From: Bacteroidales bacterium
GTDB taxonomy: Bacteria > Bacteroidota > Bacteroidia > Bacteroidales > UBA3663
Reading direction: 5' to 3'
Assembly: GCA_017618715.1 (NCBI GenBank)
Contig: JAFZTS010000078.1
Coordinates: 1-32,349 of the forward strand
Length of the DNA: 32,349 nucleotides
This document shows positions 23,146 through 32,263 of the stretch, in pieces. The translations under genes and the position numbers were made by a program. Positions within the stretch are counted from its first letter, which is position 1, and each line of letters starts with the position of its first letter. A model generated the notes under the pieces. The model had not been told where the DNA came from. It made no database searches and worked only from the letters and a program-made list of their open reading frames with translations.

Positions 23146-23580
23146 TCATTTCCACTTCTTGATCGTCCAGACCACCACCCCCCAAACTTCAAAATTATCA
23201 TCCGCATCAATACGTATAGGCTTGAACTGGCTATTAGCGGGACGAAGCTCGATGTAACCCTCCTGGCGATGCGTGAGATCAAGGTATTTGATCGTGAACT
23301 CCTCGTTGACGAAAGCGACAATCACGTCTCCGTTCCTCGGCTGAACTGAACGGTCGATGACAGCGATGTCGCCATCGCTGATACCGGCATCCATCATCGA
23401 ATCGCCCTCCACTCGTCCGTAGAACGTGGCTTCAGGATGAGCGATAAGGTCACGGTTGAAGTCGAGAGAATCATGCCTGTAGTCTTCGGCAGGCGAAGGG
23501 AAGCCAGCCTTGATGGCTTCTGCGAACTGGAGCTCAAGCATCTCCTTGAAGTCTCCATTTATGATGTGTATTTTGGACAT
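23146..23580 (-). CDS. UmuD-like S24 autopeptidase, catalytic serine intact
   Basis: A 144-residue protein of the LexA/UmuD S24 family. In UmuD, self-cleavage yields UmuD', the partner of translesion polymerase UmuC. The cleavage region AIKAGFPSPAEDY is typical (expected cut Ala25-Gly26). The catalytic dyad is present: Ser61 in VEGDSMMDAG and Lys98 in FTIKYLD. There is no DNA-binding domain, so it is not LexA, and no umuC lies beside it. It follows the HAD-like gene by 22 bases on the same strand. A second, diverged copy lies at 31486. The family is sure; its role without an adjacent polymerase is open. Confidence 0.9.
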   Translation of the reverse strand: MSKIHIINGDFKEMLELQFAEAIKAGFPSPAEDYRHDSLDFNRDLIAHPEATFYGRVEGDSMMDAGISDGDIAVIDRSVQPRNGDVIVAFVNEEFTIKYLDLTHRQEGYIELRPANSQFKPIRIDADDNFEVWGVVVWTIKKWK

Positions 23581-29738: not shown

Positions 29739-30761
29739 ATGAAAAAACTGGTTACAATTATCGTACTGTTACTGCTATGCATGGCGGGCTATGCAGCAGA
29801 AACCTATGTGGTGAATTCACCGAATCTGAACATGAGGGTAGCACCTAAAGGCTCGGCCGAAAAAATGGGTTCACTTACGAAAGGCGATGTCATCCTCGTG
29901 GATACAATCATCAATGGTTGGGCCACCTGCAGGAATGATGCTGGCGAGACATTCTATGTGGCTTCACGGTATTTGGAGAAAGGCAAATCACTCACTTCGG
30001 GTGATGTAGGTGGAAAACCCACGGCAGACGAGAAGGATCCCGCTGTGGTCGTTCAGAAACATTTCCTGAATGCATTGTCTTCCATTGGCATCCATATTGA
30101 GCAAAGCAAATCTACCCGATATTTCGAGTCTATGATTTTCTTGCCGCTTATCGTATTATTGGTATGCTGGATATTATCCAAGATTTTTGGCAGCTTCCGT
30201 TTGGGGAAATATGTCCCGCTGATGGGATTGGCCATTTTAGGCTATTATGAGTTGAAATGTATGCTGTGCTATAGTGGAAGTCCTGGATTCTTCGTTCACG
30301 ATGAGTTGTTCTCTATCGCGTTCTGGCTGGTCATGCTGTCCATCCTGTTCTTTGTCCAATCCATCTTTTTCGGATTAGCGGGAGAAGATGAAGCGCGATC
30401 GGCCGCAAAACATATCGGTACTCTTACAGTATTTGGGTGCGGAATCCTTTATCTGCTCACCTTTTTCTTCTTCTCATTCCTCCAGCCGTGGATCATTCTG
30501 CTACTCTTCGTCGGATTGGCACTCCATCTTTTCGCGATGTTTGTCGATGGCGATAAGGGTGTAATGGGAATAATCTTCTTTGTGATTTATGCCATCCTCT
30601 ATATGGTGAGTGCATTGGCCACTTTCCTGTTCCTGGTGATGTTCATTGGCCACATGGTCTATCTGATGGGATGGATTGGCAGCATTATTTTCATTCTTTT
30701 CCTCCTTGCTTGTGGTGGAGGAAGCGGACCTCGACTCATCGGGTTTATCATTAAAGAATGA
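29739..30761 (+). CDS. Signal peptide - SH3 - multi-pass membrane protein
   Basis: A 340-residue envelope protein. It starts with a signal peptide (MKKLVTIIVLLLLCMAGYAA), followed by a bacterial SH3 domain (VNSPNLNMRVAPKGSAEKMG, KGDVILVDTIINGWATCRND, TFYVASRYLE) and a linker. From about residue 130 there are six or seven hydrophobic helices, e.g. FLPLIVLLVCWILSKIF, AFWLVMLSILFFVQSIFFG and IGSIIFILFLLACGG. The SH3 part would sit outside, the helices in the inner membrane. It begins 19 bases after the DUF4062 gene and is last in the operon; it could be the membrane-acting partner or effector, which is inference. I know no named family with this exact layout. Confidence 0.85.
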   Translation: MKKLVTIIVLLLLCMAGYAAETYVVNSPNLNMRVAPKGSAEKMGSLTKGDVILVDTIINGWATCRNDAGETFYVASRYLEKGKSLTSGDVGGKPTADEKDPAVVVQKHFLNALSSIGIHIEQSKSTRYFESMIFLPLIVLLVCWILSKIFGSFRLGKYVPLMGLAILGYYELKCMLCYSGSPGFFVHDELFSIAFWLVMLSILFFVQSIFFGLAGEDEARSAAKHIGTLTVFGCGILYLLTFFFFSFLQPWIILLLFVGLALHLFAMFVDGDKGVMGIIFFVIYAILYMVSALATFLFLVMFIGHMVYLMGWIGSIIFILFLLACGGGSGPRLIGFIIKE

Positions 30762-30768
30762 AATTTTC

Positions 30769-31050
30769 TGTAAAGGGCGAAAAATGGATTCATATTTTTT
30801 TTAGAAGGCGAAAAATGGGCATGGAAGAATGAAGAGCTTCTGATGAAGCTCTGACGTATATGGTGAGCTCGACAATGGTAAGCGAGCTTTCCATTGCCAA
30901 CCTCACCACATCCGTCACCCTTCGGGTTTCTCATTCTTCCATGCCGAAAATCGCTCCGCAGGAAAATCAAAAAAATATCTGCTATCCCAATCTATATAAT
31001 ACTTATGTCCCAATCTATTATGGATAAAATTCTGTTTGTCCGAGGTATAT
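30769..31050 (+). repeat. Repeat block R1 (copy of the block after umuD2)
   Basis: This intergenic block shares several segments in the same order with R2 (31940-32135): two GCGAAAAATGG units about 35 bases apart, the GGCATGGAAGAATGA arm, its partner, CGAAAATCGCTYCGCAG, and a tail ATGGRTAAAATTCTG. R1 holds a full 128-nt internal element, R2 a shortened one. It lies in a 724-base stretch without a credible gene between the membrane protein and umuD2. Confidence 0.75.
30818..30945. other. Cloverleaf element E1 (128 nt, four-way junction)
   Basis: Stems in order: outer 15 bp (30818-30832 with 30931-30945, perfect); arm C, 8 bp, loop TGAT (30833-30852); arm B, in three parts of 4, 7 and 6 bp with small internal loops (30853-30916); arm A, 4 bp, ACCC-TTC-GGGT (30917-30927). 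Consecutive arms abut with only three unpaired bases at the junction. No coding frame fits. Might be a structured RNA, a MITE-like DNA element or a recombination site. Confidence 0.75.
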
Positions 31051-31145
31051 TATTAATGGTTATTAATGGCTAATTATACGGTCATTAATGTTAAAGAAAT
31101 ATGGACGAACAAAAATTTTTTTTATTTTTCTGTGAAACGATTTTT

Positions 31146-31273
31146 GATTTGCAATGATGATGACCCGAAGGGTTGGTGGGTGGCTTTCGGTCAGCATCGG
31201 GGAGCTTGCTCATCGATGGTGACAGGAAGACAGGCACCAAGGGGCTCATCAGAGCACCTCATCATTGCAAATC
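31146..31273. other. Cloverleaf element E2 (128 nt, reverse internal order)
   Basis: Same length and plan as E1 but internal arms in opposite order. Outer stem 15 bp perfect (31146-31160 with 31259-31273); arm A ACCC-GAA-GGGT (31163-31173); arm B (31174-31239) with stems TGGTG/CACCA, GTCA-g-CATCG/CGATG-g-TGAC and GAGC/GCTC; arm C with loop ATCA (31241-31258). Core motifs match the reverse complement of E1 (ACCCGAAGGGT, AGCTYGCT, GCTYCATCAGA). A 75-codon frame crossing it (31066-31293) is probably chance. Confidence 0.75.
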
Positions 31274-31380
31274 CATTTTCCTTCTTTTCTTAAAAATCAA
31301 TTCTATAATTCGATAATTCGTGATAGATGAAGGTCACAGAGATCTGCACAAATGGTCATGGATTAATGGTATTTTTGTCA

Positions 31381-31421
31381 CGAATTTGAGAATTATCTTT
31401 ATGAAGGCGAAAATGGCCTTC
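31381..31421 (+). repeat. umuD-tail motif and hairpin upstream of umuD2
   Basis: CGAATTTGAGAATT (31381-31394) followed by hairpin GAAGGC/GCCTTC (31403-31421). The same motif pair follows both umuD genes, so this may be the remnant tail of a lost upstream gene copy or part of a repeated intergenic unit. Confidence 0.6.
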
Positions 31422-31485: not shown

Positions 31486-31923
31486 ATGAACAGTATTGAA
31501 TTACTACCAAGCGACTTCAAGGAGAAACTGAAGCTTCATTATGCCAAAGCCATCAAGGCGGGACATCCATCGAGAGCCGATGACTACGAACATGAGTTCT
31601 TCGATTTCAACTTCGACCTCGTCAGTAATCCCGAAGCCACCTTCTACGGACGTGTGGAAGGGGATACGATGATCGAGGTTGGTATCCATCATGGAGACAT
31701 TGCGGTTATCGACAAGTCATTGGATCCTCAGGATGGCGATCTGATTGTCGCATACGTCAACAATGAGTTTGTCATCAAGTTCCTCGACCTGACCCATCTC
31801 AAGGATGGATACATTGAGCTTCAACCCGCCAATCGCAAATACAAACCCATACGAATCTATGATGTTAAAAACTTCGAGGTTTGGGGGGTGGTGGTTTGGA
31901 CGATCACGAATTGGAGGAAATGA
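31486..31923 (+). CDS. UmuD-like protein with catalytic Ser replaced by Thr
   Basis: A 145-residue paralogue of the 23146-23580 gene, about two-thirds identical by eye and alignable without gaps for most of its length. The cleavage region AIKAGHPSRADDY and Lys98 (FVIKFLD) are kept, but the nucleophile position 61 is threonine (VEGDTMIEVG, codon ACG) where S24 peptidases have serine. Self-cleavage should be weak or absent. The rest of the fold is well conserved (YGRVEGD, NFEVWGVVVWTI), so the gene is not simply decaying; it may act as an uncleavable partner or inhibitor. No umuC is adjacent. It is flanked by repeat blocks R1/E2 and R2. Confidence 0.88.
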   Translation: MNSIELLPSDFKEKLKLHYAKAIKAGHPSRADDYEHEFFDFNFDLVSNPEATFYGRVEGDTMIEVGIHHGDIAVIDKSLDPQDGDLIVAYVNNEFVIKFLDLTHLKDGYIELQPANRKYKPIRIYDVKNFEVWGVVVWTITNWRK

Positions 31924-31939
31924 ATCTTGGTTTTTATCT

Positions 31940-32135
31940 CGAATTTGAGAATTTTTAAAGAAGGCGAAAAATGGATTTCATGTTTTTTTAGAAGATGAAA
32001 AATGGGCATGGAAGAATGAAGAGCTTCATCAGAAGCTCTTCATTCTTCCATGCCGAAAATCGCTTCGCAGCAAAATACTTCAAAATTCGCCTATCCCCTA
32101 CTTTTATGGGTAAAATTCTGATTGACCGGATATAA
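31940..32135 (+). repeat. Repeat block R2 after umuD2
   Basis: Direct repeat of R1, with CGAATTTGAGAATT at 31940, GAAGGCGAAAA at 31960, the palindrome at 32005-32054, CGAAAATCGCTTCGCAG and a TTTTATGGGTAAAATTCTG tail. The 31924-32263 gap holds this block and two hairpins, no gene. Confidence 0.75.
32005..32054. other. Perfect 23-bp palindrome, collapsed form of the cloverleaf
   Basis: Arms 32005-32027 and 32032-32054 are perfectly complementary with loop ATCA. The outer 15 bases are identical to the outer stem of E1 and the inner part is arm C; arms A and B are missing. The loop reads as in E2, opposite to E1, although the flanks are oriented as in R1. Confidence 0.85.
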
Positions 32136-32172: not shown

Positions 32173-32219
32173 GATAAAAGAAAATTGTGGCATGTCCCGA
32201 AATAATGGGGACATGCCAC
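32173..32219 (-). terminator. Terminator for the minus-strand gene at the right edge
   Basis: A 12-bp perfect stem (GTGGCATGTCCC/GGGACATGCCAC, 32187-32219) is followed on the minus strand by AATTTTCTTTTATC. It lies 45 bases after the stop of the gene cut by the right edge. Confidence 0.8.
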
Positions 32220-32263
32220 GATTGTTGTAGGTTTGGGGATGTTCGTTGTGGAACAGCGAGGGG

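Follow-up and report, generated by a model that had tools for sequence, protein, structure and literature searches.

The two 128-nt elements E1 and E2 of the window (the whole stretch of 32,349 nt analysed here) are members of one family, family I, read in opposite directions. They are interpreted as the inverted halves of one repeat, likely a non-autonomous mobile element with folded ends that would be moved in trans by an enzyme recognising the folded single strand, a reading to which we give an even chance of being correct. The moving unit would be a pair made of an alpha-type and a beta-type copy, with the cloverleaves as its ends, presumably recognised in the form of single-stranded DNA and not of RNA. 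The best reading is thus a REPIN/MITE-like non-autonomous element with two cloverleaf ends, and the cloverleaf family is filed here as a new one among inverted-pair interspersed repeats, a kind already known. If the cloverleaf is the recognised end, the family represents a system of small repeats whose ends are much more complex than those of REPs; if it is an RNA instead, it represents a new high-copy structured RNA family.

In their common sense (E1 on the minus and E2 on the plus strand), both elements show the same order of parts, namely the outer stem, arm A, the long arm B, arm C, and the outer stem again (Table 1). An inverted-repeat scan finds the outer-stem repeats of E1 and E2 to be 15 nt long and 100% complementary, with the two repeat arms 98 nt apart. 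When folded as single-stranded DNA, each element forms the outer stem and three arms, with z-scores of -8.5 and -8.8, and none of 200 shuffles is as stable as the E1 or E2 fold. Arm A reads ACCC-GAA-GGGT in both, and the sequence outside the stems is also alike on both sides. An earlier note on this DNA, which had described two 128-nt elements with perfect 15-bp outer stems and common motifs visible only after reverse-complementing one of them, proves exact in coordinates and lengths, and the three inner arms that it proposed are recovered in both folds. E3, a reduced copy that the earlier note does not mention, retains the outer stem and arm C, which together form a single perfect 23-bp hairpin; its two flanks resemble those of E1.

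Table 1. Parts of the divergent cloverleaf pair and of the reduced copy, in window coordinates.
Feature	Position	Strand	Basis or remark
E1, alpha-side cloverleaf unit, 128 nt	30818-30945	-	fold, inverted-repeat scan and covariation
E1 outer stem	30931-30945 paired with 30818-30832	-	
E1 arms	A 30917-30927; B 30853-30916; C 30833-30852	-	
E2, beta-side cloverleaf unit, 128 nt	31146-31273	+	fold, inverted-repeat scan and covariation
E2 outer stem	31146-31160 paired with 31259-31273	+	
E2 arms	A 31163-31173; B about 31174-31239; C 31240-31258	+	
Spacer of the E1/E2 divergent pair, 184 bp between model matches	30954-31137	no strand	
Spacer ends	conserved 5' flank of E1 towards 30954, of E2 towards 31137		
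E1 conserved 5' flank, TTTGATTTTCCTGCGGAGCGATTTTC, with ATTTTC at the foot	30946-30971	- (E1's own sense)	
E1 conserved 3' foot, CATTTTTCGCCTTCT	30803-30817	- (E1's own sense)	
Second foot beyond E1, ATGAATCCATTTTTCGCC, resembling the 3' end of another subtype's stem	30776-30793	-	second foot at +19
E2 3' foot and flank, CATTTTCCTTCTTTTCTTAA	31274-31293	+	
E3, reduced copy of the E1 subtype	32005-32054	-	outer stem and arm C only

Some other features were noted in the window. Beyond E3, the window carries a 16-bp inverted repeat of unrelated sequence (GTGGCATGTCCC, 32183-32223). Two genes for S24 peptidases (UmuD-like) are found at 23146-23580 (minus strand) and 31486-31923 (plus strand), with further relatives in the genus. 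Motifs AATTCGTGA and CGAATTTGAGAATT are repeated between cloverleaves and genes at several loci, at 31305-31396 and 31931-31953 of the window and in many 3' flanks.

A BLAST search with E1 reveals a further copy, 95% identical, in its own genome. Matches are found in 4 of the 15 genomes examined from this GTDB genus, the genome of origin being one of the four. A covariance model built from six copies (R1) has matches in six of the 15, and a model built from 50 copies (R2) gives at least 52 strong copies (E below 1e-13). These lie in the six genomes already matched by R1, and 50 of them are the copies that R1 had found and that served to build R2. The strong copies number at least 11 in G000, 10 in G003, 8 in G005, 4 in G006, 13 in G010, and 6 in G013, all lower bounds since the best 150 candidates per genome were scored; a seventh genome of the genus has one weak R2 match (E 9e-4). 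The earlier note had suggested a covariance-model search and would have been undermined by a lack of copies in related genomes; the search finds them in six of the 15 genomes. At the order level, R1 has matches in 3 of 393 genomes (206 genera) among the matches listed, all of this genus. This sample was drawn evenly and holds five genomes of the genus; the order searches, with R1 and with the family II model R3 (see below), scored the best eight candidates per genome under stricter filters, with weak copies elsewhere possible.

The named relatives that carry one of the subtypes are MAGs with the isolate names RUG and RGIG, three of them with titles from water-buffalo omasum. Their titles read ‘Bacteroidales bacterium’ or ‘uncultured Prevotellaceae bacterium’, so that the ‘Prevotella’ host assumed in the earlier note was not confirmed. 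The RUG names are taken by us to mean a rumen origin, and the host is presumably a rumen-type Bacteroidales genus. Searches in plasmid and phage collections gave no match to window positions 30740-31300, and three patterns applied to viral contigs gave 0, 0, and 1 match, the single matching contig having no cloverleaf. Nothing in the window matches Rfam at the gathering score, the low-threshold matches being miRNA and snoRNA families below the cut-off, and in 15 related loci Rfam recognises only a piece of a group II intron, outside the cloverleaves. In the open-licence literature, searched by kind of element and by three isolate names, no description of this cloverleaf element was found.

The cloverleaf fold is maintained, because on 50 copies two-sided changes are seen in 48 of 52 pairs, compared with 41.5 in column shuffles; the underlying alignment (A8) was fitted to the R1 structure and hence leans towards it. 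On the same 50 copies, the covariation score is 0.671 against 0.217 after shuffling and at most 0.126 in slid controls, while standard pairs make up 88.9% of the pair cells versus 63.8% in column shuffles. In the outer stem, 97.0% of cells are paired even though subtypes differ in its sequence, and the core is 127-131 nt long in all 50 copies. A8 leaves out L049:1542-1671, E3, L060, the truncated L070:1-82, family II matches, and antisense matches. Six copies aligned with MAFFT, with a structure drawn by hand from the fold of E1 and in the very alignment from which R1 was built, show two-sided changes in 33 of 53 pairs. Column shuffles give 11.7 such pairs, and no slid control gives more than 12. 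Both alignments bear out the proposal of the earlier note that the fold is kept in spite of differing stems.

Close copies are arranged as divergent pairs. Among the 53 copies examined, pairs closer than 400 bp are divergent in 11 cases, and neither convergent nor tandem in any, with 90-279 bp between the matches; 31 of the 53 belong to no pair under 400 bp, some of them lying at contig ends or beside decayed partners. As read by eye, the spacer of each pair is asymmetric, with one kind of 5' flank per side. In a tree of the 50 copies, which cluster by subtype across species and not by genome, nine of the ten pairs with both members present consist of one copy from a clade of 21 rows (alpha) and one from a clade of 17 rows (beta). 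The branch that separates the alpha clade from the other copies is supported at 88/99, under the strict cut-off. The tenth pair is the window's own and breaks this rule, E1 falling in a 4-row and E2 in an 8-row clade, with a 5' flank of E1 that by eye resembles the alpha flank. A twelfth divergent pair, L070:1-82 with L070:172-314, was left uncounted, one half being cut by the contig end; the cut half looks E2-like and the other belongs to the 17-row clade, and therefore the alpha/beta rule has exceptions.

Two further kinds of repeat were seen next to some cloverleaves. A palindrome-rich repeat of about 200-300 bp (GCCCTGAAAGGGC, GGGGG..CCCCC, CCCCTTCGGGG) lies upstream of several of them, where a partner would be expected (L008, L054, L056, L065, L068, L072, and others). 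In G010, four alpha-type cloverleaves at contig ends (L050, L052, L053, and L057, on C11, C8, C39, and C17) border on one and the same stretch of about 85 nt, TTACCTTTGCACCTG...CAGGTGCAAAG..., which runs to the contig end. It is possible that a multicopy unit, for example an rrn operon or an IS, stands beside each of these four; rRNA motifs were not found in the 85-nt repeat, and elsewhere in the 15 genomes it was seen solely as a 26-nt piece in G003.

One strand of the cloverleaf is favoured. On the sense strand of the 50 copies, 86 G-U cells are opposed to 17 A-C cells, a bias strongest in arm B (63 versus 7), whereas the outer stem is nearly all Watson-Crick (G-U 5, A-C 2). The RNA folding energy, which offers a comparison independent of A8, is lower on the sense (outward) strand in 48 of 50 copies, and among 23 representatives, one for each 80%-identity group, G-U cells number 47 and A-C cells 13. 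Exceptions are E2 itself (2 of each), four of the 23 representatives, in which A-C exceeds G-U, and the L009 copy, whose RNA fold is better on the opposite strand. In each of the 11 close pairs, both halves have their favoured strand directed away from the spacer. The favoured strands of an inverted pair are thus found on different DNA strands, so that no one single strand can offer both halves in the favoured orientation, and this placement suits two outward transcripts better.

These properties argue for a pair of divergent noncoding RNA genes, whose cloverleaf RNAs of about 150 nt would run outward from the spacer and end at the T-rich 3' foot, dispersal being secondary; we consider this explanation possible but doubtful. 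It also agrees with the loop of arm B, which reads CUCG or CUUG in 47 of 50 copies and could equally be an RNA loop, and with the terminator-like T8-T9 that follows the stems of family II. It is opposed by the high copy number, the mixing of subtypes, and the upstream sequence, in which TAnnTTTG, taken here for the Bacteroidales-type promoter (-7) motif, is not enriched, being found before 1 of 50 copies in the outward sense versus 3.9 in base shuffles (5 of 50 in the opposite sense). The gene neighbourhood of E1 speaks against divergent RNA genes as well. The gene preceding E1 (29739-30761) has relatives of 89-93% identity at five places in G003, G005 (two contigs), G006, and G010, and at all five the similarity stops 2 nt past the stop codon and other sequence follows. 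No model match is found beside these relatives among the matches listed; they have other neighbours, and therefore the placement is not shared. None of the five places yielded a clean empty site.

A recognised single-stranded DNA is preferred to an RNA product on account of the lack of promoter-motif enrichment, the arm A triloop, the REPIN-like pairing, the high copy number, and the dispersal. The triloop C(GAA)G occurs in 32 of 50 copies by motif scan, and GAA in 38 of 50 by alignment column. GNA loops are described in PMC4686876 as producing extraordinarily stable DNA mini-hairpins; the triloop is hence a hint at single-stranded DNA, not proof of it. By analogy with a REPIN or with an IS200/IS605 end, one strand would be exposed during replication or repair, and the exposed end would fold into the cloverleaf. 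A putative enzyme would then bind the cloverleaf together with the T-rich feet seen in family I (5' ATTTTCGA, 3' TCCATTTTTC) and would cut beside it.

Traces of replaced copies are found in the 3' flanks. At four places (L062 twice, L068, and L073), a 26-31 nt piece of another subtype's 3' end, comprising arm C and the outer stem, sits in the same sense as the full copy, about 15-18 nt past the 3' end of the match. The pieces start at core positions 97, 98, 100, and 103, all in arm C. In L062, both halves are scarred, with exact matches to E1 (31 nt) and E2 (26 nt), the same combination as in the window. A motif scan finds second feet also after E1, E3, L008, and three G013 copies, which brings the total to 10 of 53, and the one beyond E1 is likely a remnant. 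Some resident units seem to have given way to a different subtype, with about 30 nt of the old 3' end left behind. Such swaps may represent exchange by recombination through the shared 5' flanks, joined beside arm C; an insertion followed by a deletion is another possible origin of the scars. A retro-copy reading of the 5'-truncated neighbours was dropped, as the same-side pattern fits recombination better. Other fragments include the copy L070 at a contig end, short matches of 16-20 nt, and, in L068:3060, a 5' piece covering positions 1-46. A different kind of change is seen in L110 (1247-1407, G000:C45), a beta-type copy that retains the outer stem and the 3' side of arm C but has another long hairpin in place of arms A and B.

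It may be, though we would not count on it, that the family stands for a new class of mobile elements. Such elements would carry a large covarying four-way cloverleaf at each end, the cloverleaves being of two types; an enzyme unlike the Y1 transposases of REPINs would recognise them on one strand, and resident units would be exchanged for other subtypes when the DNA breaks next to one of the junction arms.

The copies are essentially intergenic, since 1 of 50 overlaps an ORF of 100 aa or more. With genes called crudely as the longest ORF, a gene was found on the 3' side of 40 copies; 25 of them face a gene pointing at the copy, 19 of these within 100 bp of the gene end, and 15 have a gene in the same sense. 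Facing genes of this kind would suit repeats that serve, or are tolerated, as structures of DNA or mRNA at 3' ends (stabilisers like REPs, or attenuators) and that spread only through recombination between copies, with no transposase, and the same-side scars of subtype swaps likewise look like recombination through shared flanks. Recombination alone, however, brings no copies to new sites, a 3'-end role has no need of divergent alpha/beta pairing, and the strand transcribed from the facing gene has the weaker fold in 48 of 50 copies. Such an explanation is therefore judged unlikely.

As to the enzyme that a mobile element with cloverleaf ends would need, the Y1_Tnp domain (PF01797) was not found in four of the six carriers (G000, G005, G010, and G013). 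The carrier genomes are 77-90% complete, so the absence of a gene from a single one means little, and four absences together mean more. The Y1 ORFs of the other two, G003 and G006, read YIRKQEEHH and differ from the motifs of RAYTs, which are listed as being of the NP type in PMC6006769, that of subclass 2.6 being YIH[QN]NP. A tie to the subclass 2.6 RAYTs (Y1) of Bacteroidetes would agree with the inverted pairs and with the Bacteroidetes host, and PMC6006769 mentions copied ‘atypical secondary structures’ beside Bacteroidetes subclass 2.6 genes. Against it stand the undetected or deviating Y1 genes, the feet, in which GT[AG]G was not seen by eye, and the statement in that source that the subclass 2.6 structures are weaker, and we regard the tie as very unlikely. 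Of the candidate readings left open in the earlier note, support hence extends to a fold that is maintained, to dispersal, and to inverted pairing like that of REPs, and not to the RAYT version.

REPINs, as presented in PMC3116915, are intergenic, dispersed inverted doublets of REPs, thought to be non-autonomous, with singlets as remnants. Measured against that description, family I is similar in being intergenic and dispersed and in forming inverted doublets with a short spacer, and it differs in that each half is a 128-nt four-way cloverleaf and not a short hairpin. The halves here are, moreover, mostly of two distinct types, the feet of the 50 copies are by eye ATTTTCGA-like with no GT[AG]G, and a Y1 transposase was not found in the four carriers named above. 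Membership among REPINs is not claimed, because two of their defining features failed to appear. With IS200/IS605, an element that has a TnpA of its own and whose ends are small hairpins (PMC6006769), the family shares folded ends beside short conserved feet; it departs from them in the large cloverleaf, the opposite orientation of the ends, and the Y1 gene not found in those same four carriers. MITEs resemble the family in small size, lack of an ORF of note, and two inverted ends. In contrast to them, no IS ends were recognised here, and the ends are structured, covarying, and mostly of two types; no parent element was found, the plasmid and phage collections being without a match.

ERIC/RU-1 and BOX are intergenic repeats of similar size with no known transposase. 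To our knowledge, they belong to other hosts and have not been described as cloverleaves or as alpha/beta pairs. The length of RU-1 is 127 bp in the abstract of PMC2759123. The structured RNAs of Rfam are comparable in their covarying multi-arm fold and one favoured strand, with the difference that no gathering-score match to a cloverleaf was found.

Reverse transcriptases (RVT_1) were found in five of the six carriers and not in G013, so a common RT-driven origin is not supported. A retron ncRNA was rejected too, given G013 and the fact that an RT and a strong copy share a contig only in G005:C104, 1.4 kb apart, where the RT lies in a group II intron. Two decayed cloverleaves of G005 (L060, L159 on C104; L105 on C99) also have group II introns nearby, at about 0.9 kb and 0.2 kb, possibly by chance. 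Because the family is confined to one genus among the genomes searched, with six strong carriers of 15, the putative enzyme should be findable by comparing carriers with non-carriers.

Weak R2 matches led to a second, related family (family II), which has the outer stem, the three arms, and the motif of arm B in common with family I. It is flanked by TTTTTCTC and by T8-T9 after the stem, which resembles an intrinsic terminator. Six copies, chosen from eight after two alignments with shifted stems, show two-sided changes in 26 of 52 pairs and were used to build R3. This model detects at least ten strong copies (E below 1e-19) in G000, G003, G005, and G010, six of the ten being those from which it was built, and cross-matches family I copies. 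In the order search, R3 has matches in 3 of 393 genomes among the matches listed, only in this genus. A divergent pair of family II copies is present in G010:C19, and in L047 and L059 a family II copy stands in tandem with a family I copy within 100 bp. Finally, in G014, a genome without strong family I copies, R3 has two weak, unusual, divergent matches with T-rich feet (L128 and L134), which are perhaps a third family.
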